64,000 nt of DNA, taken from NCBI GenBank assembly GCA_024305745.1, contig JAHRBS010000005.1, positions 1,426,001 to 1,490,000 of the forward strand. Direction: 5' to 3'. Each line of letters opens with the position of its first letter. Position 1 is the first letter of the stretch. The notes below the pieces were generated by a model. The model saw only the letters and a list, made by a program, of their open reading frames with translations. It was not told where the DNA came from and made no database searches. The position numbers and the translations under genes were made by a program. This DNA comes from Polyporus tsugae. Its lineage: Eukaryota > Basidiomycota > Agaricomycetes > Polyporales > Polyporaceae. This document shows positions 21,233-62,830 of the stretch, one piece after another.

Positions 21233-23039
21233 TCAAGGCAACTCTTCCTCGATAGACCCTCTCTCTCCACCGTTCGTGTGCGCCATGTCCAAGCCCTGGC
21301 CCTCGTCCCCGCCTATCCCATCCACAAAGGGCAACCCGGTGTAGACTGGCTCCCCCATCGACGCGACGAACGCGGGGAGCGTCCCCGTCCCCGGACCATG
21401 GCCGCCCTGGGAGCCCACTGAGAAGTTCAGGTTGAGCGATTGGATCGCCGAGGGCGACGACGGCGCGGCTGTCCTGCGGTCCGCTTGGCGTAGGTCGAAG
21501 AGGAAGCGGCAGATCAGGATCGCGGTCAACCTTCCACGGATGGGTTAGCAGAGGGAGTATTGGGGGAAAGAACGAGTCGACGTACGGGGGCGCGGCATAG
21601 GTGGCGAAGTTTCCAAGGGCGAGGGCCGATGGAGCCTGGTGTGAGAGTATGGTAAGACTTTGGTATGCACAATGACAGGAGACGGGGTGGCGGAGAAGGA
21701 TATACGTACCTGCGAGAGAATCGACTCCAGAATGTTCATGACCGTGATGACGCTGGTATTGGCGTCGTCACGTAAGCAGTGGTAGTTAGGGGAGACAATC
21801 GACGGGGGAACCAAATGCTCACATGAAGTAGATGCTCCCTATATCCCAAGATGGTGAATCAAACTGGCGCAGGGACGGTAGAACATGAACACGCACCATT
21901 ATACAACAGGACACGGGTTATCGATGGCCCCTTCACTACGCCCCGTTGCGCTCGATACGACGTGTACGTCTTGTGCCACGTTACAAACAGGACGAGGATG
22001 TCTCCCGTGATAGAGAGGATCCTGCTGGCTATAGTTACTGAACAAATATCATCGTTCTGCGTCGTGAGTGTGCGAGTGCTTGCTACGTACAGCTGGGGAA
22101 CGCGACAAATTCAAATCACAATAAGTCAACGTATACCCCAAGGAGTCAAGCAGATTCTCACCGGTGCGCTATGTCCGGGGGTATAGAGACCGGATTATTG
22201 GTGCAGTTGAAAGGGCTCGGCAGCACTGCCGGTGTGGCAGTGGCATTCACCGTCTACTCGGATATCACAAGTCAGGAAATGGGGTACTCTGGAGGACGAG
22301 AGACTCCCGACAGGTACAAACGCACCGATGTGACGAGCGCGGGGACAAAGAGGATGAGAAACGTGACGATCGCTGTGGCTTTGTGTTCCGGCGAGAGCGT
22401 ATAGACCCGAATGGCGGAGAAGACTGCATGAAGTCCGGAGTAAGAAATTGTCTATCAATAGATCGTGTTTGCCTGGGCTTACTCGCCGGGGTGAGCGCAA
22501 ACGGAATGATCGCTACCGTTTGAAGGCGATAGTTGATTTCACAACTATAGATATCTCGCGATTAGTATGCAAGGGGCGACCGTCACAGTACCACAGGCAA
22601 CGTACGCCTGAGGGATCATCAGACATTTGCGGCGGGAATTCCTACGATGACAGTAGCGCACGCACCTTGTAAGACATGGGGAACACCGTCTGCAACTGAA
22701 GGATGATAAGAACGATCGGAGGGTAGCGGCTCAGTCCATAGAGGAGCGCTGCAGCAGTGAGCCTGCGGCCCTTGCGAAAGTCCCAAAAGCATCGAATCTC
22801 CTCGTCCAAGTTGATGAGCCAATCATAGGTGACAAATGCTGGATGCGTACAGCACATCAGCGACCCTTTACGTCATCAAAGGTTCCGAACGCACTGAAGG
22901 TAGCGAAGGTGTAGTACTGTGCGGTCACCCTGAAGATAGACGGCGAAAACCATAAACTATTAGCTTAAATGCGCGAAGGGCCGGTATGGGAAGCTTACAG
23001 AGTCGAAACCGCGTCGATAAGAGCCGTTTGTGACGCCAT
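21233..23039 (-). CDS. DUF6533 membrane protein, copy F (complete)
   Basis: Thirteen exons keep one frame over 1053 nt (350 residues): 23039-22999, 22929-22895, 22838-22666, 22607-22606 (GC), 22544-22483, 22423-22326, 22253-22162, 22092-22091 (CT), 22037-21897, 21838-21823 (16 nt), 21752-21710, 21635-21586, 21530-21233. The N terminus MASQTALIDAVSTLVTAQYY leads into FVTYDWLINLDEEIRCFW. Later hydrophobic blocks include IFSAIRVYTL, IVTFLILFVPALVTS, GDILVLFVTW and YFIVITVMNILESIL, then ILICRFLFDLRQ and a Ser/Gly-rich tail. About seven membrane segments are expected. Function is unknown. This is the most divergent copy in the window, yet it has the same two 2-nt exons, so they predate the recent duplications. 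Confidence 0.85.
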
Positions 23040-27304: not shown

Positions 27305-29132
27305 ATGTCCGCGATTAATGTCAGTGTGCAGGAGTTGTCGTATCTGTAAGTGTGGCAGCAGCTTTGATGCCCATCGTGAGAGTGCTAACACCCTGAAATA
27401 ATAGCTTCACGGACACATACTGCGTCCTTGCTGTTTGTGGTGCTGTCTCGCACACTATCACCGAATTTCCTGATGCTAACATAGGGCCTCAGCACTCCTC
27501 GTCTATGACTGGCTCCTGTGCCTCAGCCAGGAGGTCAGATTCATATGGAACTGGCGCTCTCGGGGAGTCACTGTCTCCTCGCTTGTGTATGCCTTCAGCC
27601 GCTACGCATTTCTCATAGAGAATCTCCTCAGTATCGCGACGACGTATCCGATGTCGGACGTAGTACGCCCATCTCGCCACTATCATTCTTCCTTCTAACG
27701 GGCTAATCATTGTACATATAGAGGTATCCGGCCGTCGTCCACTGACTATATATCGATCTACGCTGTTTACACCTGCCCCATCACAATAGCTGTAGGGCAA
27801 ATGCATGGACCCAGGTTGCCATGGAGATACTGGGGGTGGTCGCGTTGAGCGGTGGGTCCGAGCCCCTTCTCACAACAAATCGTATGCTGAACCCAACCGG
27901 TCTCTAGCCTTCTCTGCCCTACGTGCTTACGCGCTGTCGAACAGGAGCATATGGTTGGCGGCCATAATCTTGCTTTTGGCGCTACCACCTGTGGTGATGC
28001 GCATTGTGAGTGCTTCACTGCAGACGGTGACCCTGTTTGTGGTTGGTGAACCATTTGTGGAAAAGGTCGAGTGGTCCTACCTAGTTCCTGAGAATCTACC
28101 AAGCCCGTTGAATTGTAGCAATTCAAGCTCGCTACCTCCGACACTCTCTGTCAGGTGTGTGTTTGACAGCTCACATTTTATGCGACCACTCTAACAAACA
28201 GATACTATTTTCCAGTGGTGCGTAGGATGTCGATTATTCATGTTTCCATGGTGCCCATTTCTATCATCTATAGTGATTGCCATTCTCCGGGGGTCGCAGT
28301 TTGTGGCAGAGCTGCTTGTCGCCGGTATTACCTGGTGGTACACCTACCAGTCGTATCGCATCCGGAAAGGCATCAAACTCGGAAAAACTCTTAGTTCTCT
28401 CCTGTTCTACAACGGTGAGTCGGCTCATGGATCCTCGTGTTGCTAGCTGACGTGATGTGCGAATGCTCAGGAAGCATGTATTTCCTGTGCGCTTAACCTC
28501 CACGATGCTGTGATTCACGGGGCTCATTTCAACATTCACAGATTTCTCGCGACCTTGTGCATCCTCGACATCATTTTCGGTATATCAGTTGTACGTCCTT
28601 TCAATGCAGATCATGTGTCAGGATATATCCTCATACATTGCTCCAGTTCCCTTTGGAGGTCGTAGATGCGGCAAGGTTTTTGGAGGCATTCGTGGATCCG
28701 TACGTCCGCGCCGTGGCCCTTCAAGTTGGTACCCGCTTCCTTTTTCTGACAGATCGTCATGAGCGCAGCCTAGCTTCGATAATCACCTGTCACTTCATGC
28801 TCTCGCTTCGCCAGTTCGACAGCACCATCGCGTCCATGAATGATTCTGGGCTGGGCCCTCGAGTTCGAGAGCACATGGCCTCGACGGTGCTCGAGTTCGG
28901 TGCGCAACCCAGTGACAGCCTCCCGGCCCTCATCGCGTCCTTTGCTCACCCCGTCCACGTCGATACGACCCTGTCCGAAACGGTACTACCACCCGATGCA
29001 ATTGTCGAGGGTGCCGGGTCCGAGTGGCGAGAGATGTCGGACGTGGCGGTCGCACCGAATCTAGGGACGCCATCCGGCCAGAGTCCGGCCCGTGATCAAA
29101 CGTCCGGTTTGGAACCTTGGGTCACGGTGTAG
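27305..29132 (+). CDS. DUF6533 membrane protein, copy B (complete)
   Basis: Thirteen exons, 1122 nt, 373 residues: 27305-27345, 27405-27439, 27493-27662, 27722-27723 (AG), 27790-27851, 27908-28005, 28066-28154, 28216-28217 (TG), 28274-28414, 28471-28486 (16 nt), 28542-28590, 28647-28699, 28769-29132. Signatures are LLVYDWLLCLSQEVRFIWNW, CRANAWTQVAMEILGVVA, FSALRAYALSNRSIWLAAII, LPSPLNC, GSQFVAELLVAGITWWYTYQ, and the C-terminal CHFMLSLRQFDSTIASM with an acidic tail. The frame closes only with both 2-nt exons. Multi-pass membrane protein of unknown function. Its nearest relatives in the window are copies A, C and E. Confidence 0.85.
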
Positions 29133-42281: not shown

Positions 42282-44067
42282 ATGTCCGCCATCCATGTGA
42301 GCGCGGATGAGATGTCATCTCTGTGAGTCTGCCGGTTTTGATGCCCATTACGAGAGTTCTGACACCGTTGTGAACTAGCTACACGACCGTATACTGTGTT
42401 TACGCGGCTTGTAGTACGGTCTTGCACAATGATACTCGCCTGACTCTCCAATGCTAACTCGGCGCCCCTTAGTGATTCTCGTCTATGACTGGCTCCTGTG
42501 CATCGACCAGGAGGTCAGATACATATGGAACTGGGATTCCGGGCTCACTGGCACCTCGCTGGTGTACGCTCTTAGCCGCTATATGTTGCTCATACAGACC
42601 TTCCTGGCTGTCGTGACGAATTACCAGATGTCAGACCTGGTACGCAAGTCTGCTACTCCGTCCCGTTCTCCGCTTTGACTGACTGATGTCCATGTAGAGG
42701 TACCGCTGCCTCAATTGAACGAACATTGATTTCCGCTTACAACCGCTCCCCTACAATAGCTGTAGGGCGGTGGGATGGACCCAGACCGCTACCGGGATCC
42801 TGGGTGCGATCGCGTTTGCAGGTGTGTACGAGCTCCTTTCAAGAATTCCCGGTTTTAAACCAAATCGGTTTCCAGCCTTCTCCGCTTTGCGTGCATACGC
42901 GCTGTCCAACAGGAACATGTGGCTGGCTATCGTAATCATCCTGTTGGCGCTACCGCCGACGGTGATTCGCATCGTGAGTCTGTCTGAGTGTTGGTCCTCC
43001 ATGTCGGTAGTAAACCGTTTTCGGCGGAAGATTCAAGGCATCAATAGTGACTTTCAGAACCTGCCTAGTCCGTTCAATTGCAGCGTCTCGAATTCGCTAT
43101 CCCCAATGCTCAATCTCAGGTGTGTTCCGCAGTCAACGTTCTTTATGACGACGCTAACGAACGGACGATCATCCTTTCCAGTAGTGTGTAGGATATTAAC
43201 CCATGGCTTTTCGGTTGTACTCACATCTACTACCTATAGTTACTCTGGTTACGCGGGTATCCCAGCTTGCGGCAGAGCTGCTAGTCGTCGGTATGACCTG
43301 GTGGTACACTTACCAGTCGTACCGCATTCGGAAAGATGGCATCAAACTCGGAAAATCTATCAGTTCCCTTCTCGTATACAACGGTGAGTCGTCCGCTGTA
43401 TCATCGCGTTCCCCGCTAAATGGACGTTCGAACGCGCAGGAAGCATCTATTTCTTGTGCGCTCCACTCTTTCGGTGTTATGACACCCTGCGCTCATGACA
43501 AAATGCACAGGTTCCTCGCGAGTTTGTACATAATCGACGTCATCTTCAGCACGGCATCGGTAGGCACTTCGACCGCAGGTCACATATGTTAACGCGTTTT
43601 CTCATGCTTCCCTCTAGGTTCCAGACTCCGTCGTGGATGCGGACAGTTTGCTGGAACTATTCTACGACCCGTGAGTCCCCTCCGCGGCCCTCGGTGCTAC
43701 CCACCTTCGTTTCCTGACGATGCATAACGCTCGCAGCATAACCTCGCTCCTCGTGTGCCACTTCATGCTCTCCCTCCGCCGTTTCGACAGCAGCAGCACC
43801 GCGGCCACGACGTATTCCGGGGCGGAATCTCAATCTCGTGAGCACGCAACCTCGTCGGGCGTGCTCCACTTCGCGGCACAGCCCAGCGACACCCTCCCGC
43901 ACTTCATCGCGTCCTTCGCGCAGCCCGTCCATTTCGACTCGTTCTGGTCCGAGACGGACCCTAACGCGATGCCAGCCGACGACGACTCGGAGTCCGAGTG
44001 GCGAGAGATGGATTTGATGGCGGTGGCTCGGAAGACGCAGGGCGGCGGCGAGAGTCCGGTACCGTGA
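42282..44067 (+). CDS. DUF6533 membrane protein, copy C (complete)
   Basis: Thirteen exons, 1089 nt, 362 residues: 42282-42322, 42379-42413, 42473-42639, 42698-42699 (AG), 42760-42821, 42876-42973, 43031-43119, 43182-43183 (TA), 43240-43383, 43440-43455 (16 nt), 43511-43559, 43618-43670, 43737-44067. Signatures are ILVYDWLLCIDQEVRYIWNW, CRAVGWTQTATGILGAIAFA, FSALRAYALSNRNMWLAIVI, LPSPFNC, VSQLAAELLVVGMTWWYTYQ and CHFMLSLRRFDSSSTAA. A multi-pass membrane protein is expected, of unknown function. Copy D follows in tandem 0.8 kb downstream. The upstream region lacks the A/B/E duplicon, so this copy arose in a different event. Confidence 0.86.
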
Positions 44068-44859: not shown

Positions 44860-46533
44860 ATGGCTTCATTAGCATCTATGGCAGAAGTTCTGTCCTCCTT
44901 GTGAGTGGATTTCTTCCCGAATCCCGTTCTCACCTGACCTCCGTATGCCTCTGACAGGTTCACGACCACCTATTGCACAAACACCTCGCTCAGTATGTTG
45001 AATGCCGCGTCTTTCTCCGTACATGTGCTGATCCGACTCTCAAAGCTATCCTCTTCTATGACTGGCTGCTCTGCCTTGACCAGGAAATTGTCTGCGTCTG
45101 GAAGGCTGGTGGCGTTCTCAACGCAGCGTCGCTCGTGTACGCGCTCAGCCGCTTCCCGTTGATGTTGGGTATGGTCTTCTCCACCGCAACCATTTTTCCG
45201 CTGTCCGTGCCGGTAAGCAATCATGTCTGTCGTTTATCAAATGTAGCCACTCACATGCGTCCAGAGGTGAGACTAGCCGGCCTCCCGTGTGCCCACTACT
45301 CTGAGGATCCTCACAACCATGACACACAGTTGTCACTTCGTATTTTGGGCGGAGAACTTCGTGATCTTCCTCTCGCGCTTCGCGATAGGCAGTACGTGTC
45401 CCCGGTCATCCAATCTCGTACTCAAATGCCCACTGCGTGCTATGCAGTGTTCTCAGCGTTCCGAGTATACGCGGTATCCGGACGAAAGATCATACCGACG
45501 CTCATCGTATCTATTTTATCGATAATCCCAATCATCAATAGCCTGGTGAGTGCTTCGAGGCCAATGCTACTTGCATTTTAATTGGACGTCATCAATAGGT
45601 CCTATATATTGGGTTCACCTCCGTGGAGGTCCTCCCGAGCCCTTTCAACTGCAGCGGCATAATCAGGCTTTCTTCACAGTGGTCCTTCAGGTGAGTCCGC
45701 ATCTATCTCGAACAGAAGCGACTATCTGCTGACAGATCTCCTGCCATGCATAGGAGTAGGTCATGGTTTGTTTAATTGTGGACCCCACTGATACGATATT
45801 CTTCAGTTGCCGTGATTACCCGAAGCTCGATCATTGCAGCGGACACCATCGTTATAGCCATCACATGGTTGAACACATACAGAGTACGTAGGCTCGAGAG
45901 ATCTCACCACCTTGGAGAGACCTTGGGAAGCGTCTTGCTGCGCGATGGTGCGTTGTGGCGAATTCGGCCTGTTTTACTCCCCCGCTCACCCTAAACCACT
46001 CGCAGGAAGTCTCTACTTCATGTGAGACGCACGAGGCTCCGCCAGCGAGAACCGCACGCTCATCGGTAAATCCCAGCGTACTGGCGTTGTTGAACGTCTT
46101 GCAAGTCATTCTTACCGCGGTCTCCGTAAGTTGCACCACTTTCGTGTCGAGACCTTTCCTTTTTATGGCCTCGTTCTGGACGCACAGCTCGACTCGATAA
46201 CCAGCAAAGCAAGCTACGTCACGATATTCATCGACCCGTAAGCCGCCAGCCCCTCCATGTCCATTTAATACTTACCATATCCACGAGTTCCCCAGCCTCT
46301 CGTCCATCCTCACATCCCGCTTCATCCTCAACCTCCGCCAAGTCGACCACATTGGGACGCCTTCCACTGTAGCTTCGGCCGGAGATGTGCAGTTCGCGGA
46401 GCGAGGCTCGAGGAGCACGCTCCCGCGGTTCATCGCGTCCTTTGGCGAGCCGCTTCACACTGCCTCGGCCGGGTCGGAGGTGTTCGGTGAGGTTGGAGAC
46501 GTAGGGGAAGACTCGGCAAGCGCGGATACTTGA
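44860..46533 (+). CDS. DUF6533 membrane protein, copy D (complete)
   Basis: Thirteen exons, 993 nt, 330 residues: 44860-44900, 44958-44992, 45046-45212, 45265-45266 (AG), 45330-45391, 45448-45545, 45599-45690, 45754-45755 (GA), 45807-45947, 46006-46021 (16 nt), 46077-46125, 46188-46237, 46296-46533. Signatures are ILFYDWLLCLDQEIVCVWKA, CHFVFWAENFVIFLSRFAI, FSAFRVYAVSGRKIIPTLIV, LPSPFNC, ITRSSIIAADTIVIAITW, YFIVLALLNVLQVILTAV and RFILNLRQVD. Protein identity to the other copies is clearly lower, yet exon lengths and both 2-nt exons are retained. Function is unknown; expected in a membrane. Confidence 0.85.
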
Positions 46534-50577: not shown

Positions 50578-52685
50578 TCATCTGCGACGCGGAGTGTTCC
50601 CGGACGCTTGCACGTGAGCGTTCCTCGAATCTTGAGGGATATATAGGCGGGAAGGACCGGCGACCGGCGTGTCGCGACTCGGGCGGGAAATACGGGATGT
50701 CGTTTGTTGACTGGGAGGGAGCGGCGCACCCCGGGGTTCGCGCCGACCGGTGCTCTTCCCCGTGAGTCCAACGTCCTCGCGGGGCGGAAACGCAACGTTC
50801 CGCCGGTCTTTCATATCGCCATACACCATCCCCTCGAGCTCGATGTGGATGACCAAGGTGTGCTCGGGATTCAGCTTGCAGCGCGAGAACGACAGCCGGA
50901 CGGTCCGCTCGGAGTCTCCGAAGTCCTTCGTCCAGCGCGGCCACGCATTGACATGGTCCTCGAGACAATTGTGCGAGAGGATGTCGGCCAAGTCCAATTC
51001 GAACGCGAACCGCGGGAACACCTTCGCCCAGTGCGCCGGCCGTCCTGGAGAGCGCACGCACGTCCCGAACAAGAGCTCGACGCACTCGTTGCTGTCGATG
51101 TCCTCGAACGCCACGCTCACGCGGAGCGGCATCCCGTTGACGGCGTCGTTTTGGATGCTCATCGGGTGCATCTCCATGCCAATCAGCGACAGCCTGCCGA
51201 GGAGCCAGTGCGGGAGGCGGAAGGGCGGGGCGGGAGCGATGGAATGCAGGGCGAAGCAGCGGCTCGGCGCGGTGTCCTTCCTGATGGGCGGCGGGGTGTC
51301 GGCGATGAAGATGTCGCGCCACTGGGCCGTCACCACCATCCCGTTAAGACGCAGATTGTAGAGGTCGTTTCCGAGGGAGATGAGGCGCTTGAAGCCACCG
51401 ACCCTGAACATGCACCCGGTGTGGTACTTCTTTCGCGACGGATCCTGGAGAAGATCGTCGAACTGGCGGAGGAGGAGGCCGATGTGTTCGCGACCTGTGT
51501 CGCACAGGAGGACCGCAATGGTGAGCCCGCCCGACTCGATGATGGGGAAATGGCATTCAAATCCGTAGCTTGTAGATGAAAACCGAGGTAGTTCTTGACG
51601 ACCAAATGGGCCAAACTCTCTCTCGAAGCGACTTCTGGGATCTGTTGCACGCTAAGGACCACGTTTCGTTAACTACAACATAGTATCATTTGAAGACGAC
51701 TACTTACCTGCTCCGTTGTCCATTGCTCGTCGAGATATGGCTGCAATGGATTCTTTGTGGAGGGCGTATAACGCACATGATGATGCGGCTCGGTGAAGCT
51801 CGTCGGCGAAGAGGCGAGGAGGTAGATGTCGTTCATTGAGGATAGGAATCTGTCGTAGGATAAAACCTTGTACATCTCTGGTAGTACCGGGTCGTCGGCT
51901 CTAGTAGAGGACTCCAACTCACAACCCCAAGCGAACAGGCTCGTGTCGAACGACTGCTTCACGATCTCGTGCTGGAGGCGAAGGAACGCCTGACGACCCT
52001 CCCCGTAGATCGTAGGCATGTTGACGTTGAAGAGGCCCATCAGGCAGTACGCCTCATCCTCCACACGGGTCGTGTTCCGCTTCGACGCCCATGACATGCG
52101 CTCTGCAACGCACACTGCCGAGTAGTGCTCCTCGCGCGTCAGCACTTGCGACGATACGCCGGTGACCTGTTCAAGGAGCGGCGCGAGCTCCACCTTGTTC
52201 CCTATGATCTCCCAGTCTCGCGATAGAAAGATGACGAAGAAGGGGGCGAGGAGCTCCTGCAGCGTCCATCCACGCGTGTGCCACCGCGCCGTCCTGAACA
52301 TCGAATCCGGCGCTCTCAGGTCGTCGGAACTGTCGACGTCGTGCAGATATGCATAGCACACCTCTGCGAGAGAATACCAGTGGAACATCGAGTTGATCGC
52401 CCCCGATAGTTCGGTGCTGCTCGTCTTGTCGATGCAGCACGTGTCGTTCCACACCCACCGGTACCCGTGGCGTTCCGCGAGGAGGCAGCACTCGCGGACC
52501 TTCGAGGTCGCAAGGTCTCGAGGGTTTGCGCCAGTTTCCTTGCACCGCTCGCGGAGGGCTTGTATCTCTTGGAACGTCTGCTCGTTGTCGCTCCAAGTGT
52601 GGGATAGGATCGCGTAACCACCGATGACCGCTTCCGGGCTACGGAAGAAGTGGAGTTCGGCGCGATCGGTGCTTAACAACCACAT
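50578..52685 (-). CDS. HET-domain (heterokaryon incompatibility) protein
   Basis: Two exons, 52685-51708 and 51651-50578, join in phase to give 683 residues. The HET domain starts MWLLSTDRAELHFF and continues AILSHTWSDNEQTFQEIQAL, VRECCLLAERHGYRWVWNDT, CCIDKTSSTELSGAINSMFH, WYSLAEVCYAYLHDV and HTRGWTLQELLAP. It is followed by the DUF8212-type segment DEAYCLMGLFNVNMPTIYGE with LQHEIVKQSFDTSLFAWGC. The C-terminal half (FECHFPIIESGGLTIAVLLC and onward) is a less conserved region common to Agaricomycete HET proteins. It ends in a Ser/Arg/Pro-rich tail. HET proteins trigger cell death on non-self recognition in ascomycetes; the role in basidiomycetes is less certain. No NACHT or WD40 part is present. 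The intron is 56 nt. Confidence 0.88.
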
Positions 52686-58201: not shown

Positions 58202-60012
58202 ATGTCTGCTCCTCGTGTCACTACGCAGGAGATGTCAAATCTGTAAGTCTAGCAACAGCTTTGATGCCCGTACTGTGAGTTCTAATACCGTCATGAACTT
58301 TTGCATAACAGCTACACGAACGTATACTGCGTTTATGCTGCTTGTGGTACTGTTTCCCACAATATTCGCCTAATTGTCCGACACTAACGTATGCCCTTAG
58401 CGATTCTGATCTACGACTGGCTCCTGTGCCTTGGCCAGGAGGTCAGATTCATATGGAACTGGCACTCTAAAGTCACTGGCTCCTCGCTGGTATATGCCCT
58501 TAGCCGCTATGCGGTGCTCATACAGAGTCTCCTGATTGTTGCGACGAACTATCCAATGTCGGACCTAGTACGCCATCTTGCTATGACTCTCCCTTTCGAT
58601 GAACTCATGTTGTGGATGTAGAGGTAACAGATGGTCATTGATTTAGTGGGTGTTGGCCGATGCTTACACCCACTCCTCCACAATAGCTGTACAGCAAATG
58701 TATGGGCCCAGAACGTCGCGGCGATACTGGGCGGGATCGCATTCAGCGGTGTGTCTGAGTCTGTTCTAAAAACACTTGTATACTGAACCGAACTGGTTTC
58801 CAGCCTTCTCTGCCATGCGTGCATATGCGCTGTCGAACAGGAACGTATGGTTGACGACCATAATCATCCTTTTGGCGCTACCACCAGCGGCAATCCTCAT
58901 CGTGAGTCTCGGACATCGCTCTTGGTTGTGGTTGGTCACCCATTTTCCGGGAAAGCTTGAATGCCTCTACGAAACTCCTACAAATCTACCCAGTCCATTC
59001 AATTGCAGCTGGTCAGCCCCCCTGGCTCCGACGCTCTCGCTCGCGTGCGTTCAGCAGCCATCATTCTGTTTGACGACACTAACGGACCGGCAATCGCTCT
59101 TTCCAGTCGTGTGTAGGATATTAATCCATCATGGCTCCGTGGTGCTCACTTCTGTCACGTATAGTTACTGTTGTTATGCGGGCATCGCAGTTTACAGCAG
59201 AGCTGCTTGTTGTCGGTATCACCTGGTGGTACAGCTACCAGTCGTATCGCATTCGGAAAGGCGTCAACCTCGGGAAAACTGTCAGTTCTTTCTTCATTTA
59301 CAATGGTGAGTCGCCTCATGGACCATCACGTTCAAGTTCCTAGCTGACATGATGTACAACTAGGAAGCCTCTATTTCCTGTGCGCTTCGCTCCGTATGAC
59401 ACTTTGATTCCCCGGCCTCATTGCAAAATTTGCAGATTTCTTGCGACCCTGTACATTCTCGGCATCATCTTCGGCACGGCGTCGGTGCGTCCTTCAACTG
59501 CAGGTCACATACATCGCTACGTTTCCTCATACTTCGCTCCAGGTACCGCCCGCGGTCTTGAATGCGGGCAACCTCCTAGCCGCCGTATTCTATGACCCGT
59601 AAGTCCCCTCCGCTACCCACCGTCTTGTTTCCTGACAAATCATGATGGTTACAGCATAACTTCTATCCTCGTGTGCCACTTCATGCTCTCAGTTCGCCAA
59701 TTCGATAGCAACATCGCATCGGCGACTTATTCGGGAACAGGATCTCAACCTCTAGAACACATGGTCTCGACGGCAGATGTGCTTCAGTTCACGGCACGGC
59801 CTAGCAACAGTCTCCCTGCCTTCATCGCATCCTTCGCTCAGCCCGTTCACGTTGACTCGTCCCTGTCCGGCGAGACGGACACTGACGAAATTGTCGATGA
59901 TGGATCCGAATGGCGAGAAATGGATGTGCTGGTGTCGACTCAGGAGATACCAGCCCGCCAGACTCGGAGTCTGGCCGCCGATCAACCCTCGGATTTGGAA
60001 CATTCCGCGTAG
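58202..60012 (+). CDS. DUF6533 membrane protein, copy E (complete)
   Basis: Thirteen exons, 1116 nt, 371 residues: 58202-58242, 58313-58347, 58401-58567, 58622-58623 (AG), 58687-58748, 58804-58901, 58956-59044, 59107-59108 (TC), 59165-59305, 59364-59379 (16 nt), 59436-59484, 59543-59598, 59655-60012. Signatures are ILIYDWLLCLGQEVRFIWNW, CTANVWAQNVAAILGGIAFS, FSAMRAYALSNRNVWLTTII, LPSPFNC, ASQFTAELLVVGITWWYSYQ and CHFMLSVRQFDSNIASA. Multi-pass membrane protein of unknown function. It is closest to copies A and B, with which it shares the upstream region. Confidence 0.86.
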
Positions 60013-61187: not shown

Positions 61188-62830
61188 ATGCTCAGATCGC
61201 CGAAACGCATCCAACGCCCGACAGGGCTTCTCGACTTTCCTCTCCGACCCTACCCTTTTCGCGCCTGTGCTCAACGATGGATGAGTGCAAGACCGGAGAA
61301 ACGTCCCGGAGATGATGCTAATGGTGAGCATTCTTCCTTCTTTGAGCGTTCTTCCTTCTCGTTCTTCTTCGCCTTGGGAGCCGTTGGAGCGGATGCGAAT
61401 ATGCATGCATAGCTTCCACGCCTCGTGGAGCCATGCAAGCACGAGGCTATTCAACGTCCCTACTCGCGCGCTTTGAAGGATACCTCACTCTCCCTTCGCG
61501 CGAAAGACTTGAGGGCTGAAGATACATTTCTGCGTCGTCGCCGACAGAGGAAAGTTTGTGGAGGCTTACCCATACAGGAATCACGCCCTGATTTACTGCA
61601 TGAAAAGAGTTTGTGCGCGGGCTTGCTTTCTCATCATCGCGGTGTGTGGGAATGCCCGCACGCATATAGCCAGCATGTCCTTCGAGAGCTCGCCTCGGGC
61701 CCGTCGCGATGGTGCACGAAAGGACTCGACCGACCCTTCTTTATCCGTAGAGACTGCGAAGAGGCCGGGGCTTCTGGGTACTCTCAGCACCGAGCAGGTA
61801 GCTGCTAGAGACGGAGGCGAAATGAAACCACCAATCCGGCGTAACCGATGACTATCGACTAGTTGTATGGGCGGCGACCCTACCACGTTCCTACTCAATT
61901 TCTTCTTCCGTTATCGTAAACATCTTGACTTAACCCTTCGCCTCCTCCGCAGGCCCCGCATTGCCACGCAAAAAGGTGACAATCGCGCACCTCCATGCCC
62001 TCCGCGCGGCCCGCACGCCTATTACGATGCTCACCGCGTACGACTACCCCAGCGGGCGTGCCTGCGAAGCACACGGTATCGACATCACCCTCGTCGGCGA
62101 TTCACTCGCCCAGGTCTGCCTCGGCTACGACTCCACCACGCGCCTCACGCTCGACGAGCTCCTTCACCACACCCGCGCCGTCGCGCGGGGCTCCAAAACG
62201 CCGCTCCTCGTCGCGGACATGCCGTTCGGGACGTACCTCGCCAGCCCGGAGGACGCGGTGAGGAACGCGGTGCGCATCATGCGCGAAGGGGGCGCCGAGG
62301 GCGTCAAGCTCGAGGGCGGGCTCGAGATCGTCGAGACCGTGCGGAAGCTCACGAGCGTCGGGATCCCCGTCATGGCGCACATCGGACTCCTGCCTCAGCG
62401 GCACGTCGCGCTCTCGGGGTACAGGTCGCAGGGGCGCGACGCCGAGTCCGCGCTGAACGTCCTCCGGAGCGCGCTTGCGCTCGAGGAGGCTGGTGCGTTC
62501 GCAGCGGTGATCGAGGCGGTTCCCCACGTCCTTGGCACGTACATCTCCCAGCGGCTCACGCGCATGGCGACGATCGGGATCGGGGCGGGCTCGGGGACGG
62601 ACGGGCAGGTGCTCGTGTGGGACGACATGCTGGGGACGTGGCACGGGCACCAGGCGAAGTTTGTGAGGCGGTTCGCGCAGGTCGACCAGGAGGTCGAGCG
62701 GGGCGTGCGGGCGTACGCGGACGCGGTGAGGGAGAGGAGCTTCCCCGGACCACAGGAGAGCTACGAGATGCCGAAGGCGCAGTGGGAGAAGTTTGAACAG
62801 CTCGCGGAGGACGTCGTTGGGAAAGCGTAG
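61188..62830 (+). CDS. panB: 3-methyl-2-oxobutanoate (ketopantoate) hydroxymethyltransferase
   Basis: Adds a hydroxymethyl group from methylene-tetrahydrofolate to ketoisovalerate, the first committed step of pantothenate/CoA synthesis. Two exons, 61188-61323 and 61953-62830, give 337 residues. Exon 1 is Arg-rich (MLRSPKRIQRPTGLLDFPLR), like a mitochondrial targeting sequence. Exon 2 reads LPRKKVTIAHL, then ITMLTAYDYPSGRACEAHGI, LVGDSLAQVCLGYDSTTRLT (metal-binding Asp), LLVADMPFGTY (second Asp), GVKLEGG (Glu), MAHIGLLPQ, AVIEAVP (catalytic Glu) and GIGAGSGTDGQVLVWDDMLG. The enzyme core is full length. The intron (61324-61952, 629 nt) is unusually long. It was accepted because the phase and the junction N/GPALPRKK agree. 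Confidence 0.93.

Follow-up and report, generated by a model that had tools for sequence, protein, structure and literature searches.

The window, a stretch of 64,000 nucleotides of Polyporus tsugae that spans C5:1426001-1490000 of a 43-Mb genome, carries five genes of the Pfam family DUF6533 (PF20151), here called copies B to F. Their PF20151 exons scored 48.4 (B), 50.9 (C), 34.1 (D), 50.9 (E) and 40.2 bits (F) against a curated cut-off of 24.1 bits. Genome-wide, at least 148 exons matched PF20151, a lower bound with 150 of 164 candidates scored. These matches are strongly clustered on C5 and C17 and represent a large expansion of the family. The best protein relatives of copy C come from Ganoderma leucocontextum (top match with 89% identity over 56% of the query), G. 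adspersum and G. sinense, which places the genome in Ganoderma or very close to it. Two further open frames of the window, at 51669-52685 on the minus strand and at 61961-62830 on the plus strand, are taken by us to resemble a HET-type protein and ketopantoate hydroxymethyltransferase, respectively.

Splice sites and homology were combined to model all five genes completely. Their features, in coordinates of the window, are as follows.

27305..29132, plus strand: copy B gene (gene model), 13 exons, 373 aa
27722..27723, plus strand: copy B, first micro-exon (AG)
28216..28217, plus strand: copy B, second micro-exon (TG)
42282..44067, plus strand: copy C gene, 13 exons, 362 aa, DUF6533
42698..42699, plus strand: copy C, exon 4, first micro-exon (AG), gives Ser before the TM3 Cys
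43031..43119, plus strand: copy C, exon 7 with the ECL2-like LPSPFNC stretch, phase 2 at its end
43120..43181, plus strand: copy C, intron 5′ of the second micro-exon, 62 nt, gtgtgt..ttccag, with a CTAAC branch-like site
43182..43183, plus strand: copy C, exon 8, second micro-exon (TA), covering position 3 of codon 165 and position 1 of codon 166
43184..43239, plus strand: copy C, intron 3′ of the second micro-exon, 56 nt, gtgtgt..ctatag, with an in-frame TAG near its start
43240..43383, plus strand: copy C, exon 9, TM5 and the following loop
43440..43455, plus strand: copy C, exon 10, 16-nt micro-exon
44860..46533, plus strand: copy D gene, 13 exons, 330 aa
45265..45266, plus strand: copy D, first micro-exon (AG)
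45754..45755, plus strand: copy D, second micro-exon (GA)
58202..60012, plus strand: copy E gene, 13 exons, 371 aa
58622..58623, plus strand: copy E, first micro-exon (AG)
59107..59108, plus strand: copy E, second micro-exon (TC)
21233..23039, minus strand: copy F gene, 13 exons, 350 aa
22606..22607, minus strand: copy F, first micro-exon (GC on the minus strand)
22091..22092, minus strand: copy F, second micro-exon (CT on the minus strand, AG on the plus strand)

All five models consist of 13 exons, with exons 4 and 8 being 2 nt and exon 10 being 16 nt long. Corresponding exons have the same length or differ by whole codons, which is why the exon phases agree among the copies; exon 2 of B, C and E was set to 35 nt, as in D, F and the homologues P0001 and P0005. 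The 60 introns measure 51-74 nt with a median of 58 nt, and none is longer than 90 nt. An earlier note on this DNA had placed a second 2-nt block in each of the five copies and had stated that the frames close at 373 (B), 362 (C), 330 (D), 371 (E) and 350 (F) residues. All five blocks were found at these places with proper splice sites, and the models that we built have identical lengths. The 16-nt exon, a third micro-exon encoding G-S-x-Y-F, was observed in all five genes (C 43440-43455, B 28471-28486, D 46006-46021, E 59364-59379 and F 21823-21838).

The conservation of the second 2-nt block was assessed by running a profile of the TM5 exon on DUF6533 loci collected from the genome. After removal of repeats, 72 distinct loci were obtained: 30 close copies from C5 and C3, 8 more distant copies found by protein similarity, 32 copies found by the Pfam model only, and D and F. 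L001-L005 and 7 of the 42 loci fetched with the Pfam model had been dropped as repeats before counting. Another three of these 42 loci, L006, L080 and L085, gave no match to the TM5 exon and were excluded; they have the look of broken copies or of members of other subfamilies. An AG-N8-GT arrangement, possibly a longer form of the exon, was seen by eye near the expected place in L080 and L085.

The arrangement AG-NN-GT was found upstream of the TM5 exon in 70 of the 72 loci, with the GT 39-75 nt upstream of where the acceptor ends, although these loci are mutually related, some of the C17 copies closely, and do not amount to 72 independent trials. Other spacings k from 0 to 15 in AG-N(k)-GT occurred in 1-23 of the 72 loci, with the exception of k=6 (54 loci), an excess that we put down to an artefact of the second GT inside GTGTGT or GTACGT. 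Widening the limit to 90 nt raised the number to 71 of 72; the sole failure was L058, whose donor is not GT. L048 has a weak donor after the block. Two loci appear damaged at or beside this place, L049 with a stop inside its TM5 exon and L058 through the lack of a GT donor after the block. As AG-NN-GT is not rare in a random intron of about 60 nt, a single copy proves little. The paralogues with the block lie on five contigs and share 31-45% protein identity over the TM5 exon, and none of the 72 loci carries a copy in which the exons are fused. The flanking introns have median lengths of 61 nt (first) and 56 nt (second), and a branch-like motif was counted in the first intron of 56 and in the second intron of 48 of 71 loci, both being raw counts without a chance control.

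The two bases themselves vary, with 13 different pairs among the loci. In the 42 distant loci, N1, the third position of a codon, is nearly free (0.17 bits), while N2, the first position of the next codon, is T in 32 cases (0.88 bits) and begins a codon for Leu or Phe in 35. Columns outside the splice signals, examined over 16 positions on each side, do not exceed 0.45 bits. The donor columns that the search left free show A or G at position 3 in 36 of the 42 loci, G at position 5 in 39 and T at position 6 in 31; AG and GT themselves were required by the search and a donor-like candidate was chosen where several were present, so that these donor counts are slightly inflated. The hydrophobicity of the codon begun by N2 was rejected as a test of coding, as hydrophobicity is decided by the second codon base. 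In 29 close copies together with D and F, the interval between the joined exons varies between 111 and 133 nt and falls into all three classes modulo 3, and the block is constantly 2 nt long.

For the first 2-nt exon, the arrangement AG-N(k)-GT was searched before an exon starting with N-TG[CT]. A spacing of k=2 was found in 58 of the 72 loci, a few of which may be chance matches, compared to 1-12 loci for other values of k. This exon adjoins the codon of the TM3 cysteine and is mostly AG in the close copies. The claim that the same genes carry a second, independent 2-nt micro-exon is therefore borne out far beyond the window, and judging from the sequences, both 2-nt exons are old parts of the DUF6533 family in this genome.

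The block is needed for the reading frame. Omission of exon 4, exon 8 or both from B, C and E led to a loss of the frame in nine of nine cases; when exon 8 alone was left out, the frame of the C-terminal part was lost in each of the three copies. With the micro-exon, the tested stretch is open in 30 of 31 copies, and the single stop (L049) falls in the next exon. Direct joining of the neighbouring exons without the block leaves the stretch free of stops in 13 of 31 copies, but in a shifted frame. If the second intron is kept after removal of the first, a stop appears at the third codon past the junction codon in 25 of 31 copies, as in copy C with NGT GTG TAG (43184-43192). Thus, the frame is shifted or stopped when the block is skipped or the second intron is retained, and a working product needs inclusion of the block. 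With both introns kept, the stretch is open in 5 of 31 copies, including C and E, whose open reading frames run through both introns (42770-43387 and 58776-59309, respectively) and could mislead a reader into assuming a longer exon.

Public proteins were compared at both junctions. P0005, a protein with the source tag 'lgn' and a longest contig of 2518 nt, runs unbroken over 364 aa where the genes of the window have 12 introns, and aligning it with copy C reveals no extra residues where the introns lie. From this unbroken frame we infer that P0005 is derived from RNA. As predicted from the micro-exons, it reads S-C at the first (residues 82-83) and S-V at the second (residues 165-166). Its best-scoring single gene among the loci is L055 (64-86% identity over exon-sized matches), in which the micro-exon TG predicts the observed S-V. 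Another 'lgn' entry, P0235, appears by eye to enter an intron unspliced when compared with P0136. Three entries without a species name, P0231, P0233 and P0235, gave no useful coverage of the junction; P0232 is unbroken and belongs to a different DUF6533 subfamily that lacks the motif.

Gene models from Ganoderma disagree with each other at this place. In P0006 (G. adspersum) and P0013 (G. leucocontextum), the upstream exon passes straight into S-V, as the micro-exon predicts. P0001 and P0007 reach S-I or S-V through retained sequence of the first intron and hence support the donor of the second intron only. P0018 and P0032 have R-V, as a GG micro-exon could give. Other Ganoderma models skip or garble the junction, and by eye many of the DUF6533 models among P0001-P0048 are garbled at one or both micro-exons. 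In other polypores, 119 models were examined, 100 of which bear the motif; in nine of these (P0063, P0080, P0099, P0111, P0117, P0136, P0137, P0145 and P0148), [AS]-[KR]-x-[LF]-T-I-[AV]-S-R is read unbroken. These nine match the micro-exon prediction for the distant class, and the remainder belong to other subfamilies or differ.

It would be possible in some copies to join the exons without a micro-exon by a single intron of about 118 nt whose donor lies 2 nt downstream (CAG GT|GTGT), which stays in frame and changes S-I of copy C to R-F. Such a donor is present wherever the upstream donor starts with GTGT, in 23 of 71 loci (22 of 29 close and 1 of 42 distant copies; in all path counts over 71 loci, the upstream donor of the distant copies was chosen by score, without proof by homology). 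Five public Ganoderma models read accordingly, namely P0003 with R-C, P0011, P0019 and P0040 with R-F, and P0044 with R-L; some genes may truly use the shifted donor, or these readings may reflect an error of the gene predictor. It is impossible in 48 of 71 loci, including D (gtgagt), E (gtgcgt) and F (gtgaga), and it cannot produce the R-V of P0018 and P0032. Additionally, it requires an intron roughly double the length of the others in the five genes, and given that all 60 of these measure 51-74 nt, a single intron of about 120 nt is out of range. The shifted donor would also give R-F, whereas P0005 reads S-V, and it leaves the conserved AG-NN-GT unexplained. We therefore regard it as a very unlikely explanation. 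A [D1,2] stwintron, in which the first intron splits the G and T of an outer donor and removal is sequential, would likewise remain in frame, with the loss of one codon (I instead of S-I in copy C). Stwintrons of this kind are known in fungi, as far as the accessible parts of the sources go (PMC12403724, PMC9024468), and one is workable on paper in copy C (CA|G..TAGTGTG). The upstream exon ends in G and N1 is T, as such a stwintron needs, in 23 of 71 loci, B and C among them; in 41 of 71 loci, however, N1 is not T, so that the stwintron fails as a reading for the whole family. Its outer donor would be GTNGTG, which is weaker than the adjoining GTGTGT, and P0005 retains the extra codon (S-V), whereas a stwintron would yield I. 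This makes a stwintron extremely improbable.

The shifted donor, the stwintron or both are possible in 29 of 71 loci. Allowing any in-frame single intron within 12 nt, no alternative exists in 33 of 71 loci, and the commonest one is the shifted donor. No single-intron alternative is common to all loci, and the micro-exon alone fits all but one of the 72. It could also be that the stretch is retained as coding sequence, as the open frames through both introns in C and E might suggest, or that the block is a remnant in pseudogene copies, for which the damaged appearance of L049 and L058 could be cited. Against retention, the frame is open through both introns in only the few copies given above, through the first intron alone in 9 of 31 copies and in none of the 31 through the second alone; the length of the interval changes in steps other than multiples of 3, and it is in a different frame that the TM5 exon is conserved. 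There is hardly any chance that an unspliced stretch or pseudogenes account for the block.

We thus consider it highly probable that the second 2-nt block is a true coding exon, ancestral in the family and spliced by removal of one intron at a time. The evidence consists of the sequence, the frame, the conservation, the family-wide failure of the alternatives and one matching transcript-like protein, P0005. The block shows the features of an ultra-short exon, with canonical AG and GT in two introns of normal size, a need for it in the frame and a conserved position. Most likely it is a real, old and frame-essential micro-exon between two minimal introns that are removed sequentially. Close to the N-terminal end of TM5, it would complete one codon with its first base and open the following codon with its second. 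Most DUF6533 genes of the genome probably go back to an ancestor that already had it, nearly all of the genes examined have inherited it, and presumably every copy is spliced via the micro-exon.

A 2-nt exon is unlikely to hold the 3′ and the 5′ splice complexes simultaneously. As the two splice sites are too close for binding at the same time, one intron would have to be removed first. Splicing most likely proceeds by intron definition, one intron at a time: after one intron is out, the other would use the splice site beside the newly joined exon. The earlier note had seen a functional or mechanistic constraint in the retention of two such exons by diverged paralogues. Our data agree with a constraint on inclusion, as skipping shifts the frame in three of three copies tested. 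A special function need not be assumed, because inheritance together with rare intron loss would suffice. With no fused copy among the 72 loci, inheritance is the simplest explanation for the long retention of the arrangement, and conservation alone does not establish a regulatory role. It is conceivable, though improbable, that the paired 2-nt exons serve the whole receptor-like family as a common checkpoint of splicing, each with two strictly ordered, recursive-like steps. If so, a change in the splicing machinery or in the growth state could switch off many 7TM proteins together through frameshift and mRNA decay.

Proteins of the type of copies B-F are predicted to adopt a GPCR-like 7TM fold. 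The predicted model has seven helices with cysteines in TM3 and ECL2, and in a VIA-align comparison of the P0005 model the fungal receptor Ste2 was the top row. Foldseek alone gave a weak match (best E 7e-4, TM 0.33), and a sequence search against solved structures at E up to 1 gave no match. Since a fold does not show function, the label GPCR-like refers to the predicted fold and not to G-protein coupling. Within the open-licence literature searched, DUF6533 turned up in just two papers, one of them PMC8955403.

Exons this short are already known, according to the accessible parts of the literature (PMC4674806, PMC8831610, PMC12940212). A 1-nt exon was described in APC11 of Arabidopsis, where the authors favour intron definition with consecutive removal of the two introns (PMC4674806), and 1-nt exons were described in plant APC11 and VPS55 (PMC8831610). 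As far as these texts extend, they resemble the present case in that an exon of 1-2 nt lies between ordinary introns, is essential for the frame, is conserved for long and is mostly missed by annotation. They differ in having one such exon, in single genes or small pairs, supported by RT-PCR and reads, whereas here a family of about 150 matches carries two per gene on the basis of sequence. In fungi, the available text on CYP621A of Fusarium reports a 1-nt exon in 20 members, confirmed by SRA reads; the authors note that the joined intron exceeds twice the median length, describe the exon as the first of its kind in a fungal gene, and mention in the introduction that exons of 2-5 bp are known in other organisms (PMC12940212). 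That exon is likewise fungal and frame-essential, but it is 1 nt long and from Fusarium, whereas here 2 nt occur twice per gene in many paralogues of a basidiomycete. P450 genes of Phanerochaete chrysosporium contain micro-exons, the shortest of 6 bp, and introns of 45-55 bp in the portion seen of PMC1184071. These genes share the white-rot basidiomycete background, the short introns and very small exons across a gene family, and no 2-nt exon fixed at one family position is described there. Fungal stwintrons, as presented in the accessible sources, are similar in that two nested minimal introns are removed sequentially at one place; a [D1,2] stwintron, however, leaves no coding bases between its introns, whereas here two bases are read. 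In the open-licence literature, as far as its accessible text goes, no description of a 2-nt exon in a fungal gene family was found. A large gene family with a 2-nt exon fixed at one position, and another 2-nt exon elsewhere in its genes, thus appears to be new.

The literature, in its accessible parts, has exons of 1-2 nt for few genes, whereas two per gene are present here in most examined members of a family of about 150 matches. The family offers dozens of natural variants of a single 2-nt exon, which makes it testable how the spliceosome handles splice sites that are 2 nt apart, and in which order. The micro-exon also explains why many public models disagree at this place, a disagreement that hampers work on what may be a large set of fungal 7TM receptors.
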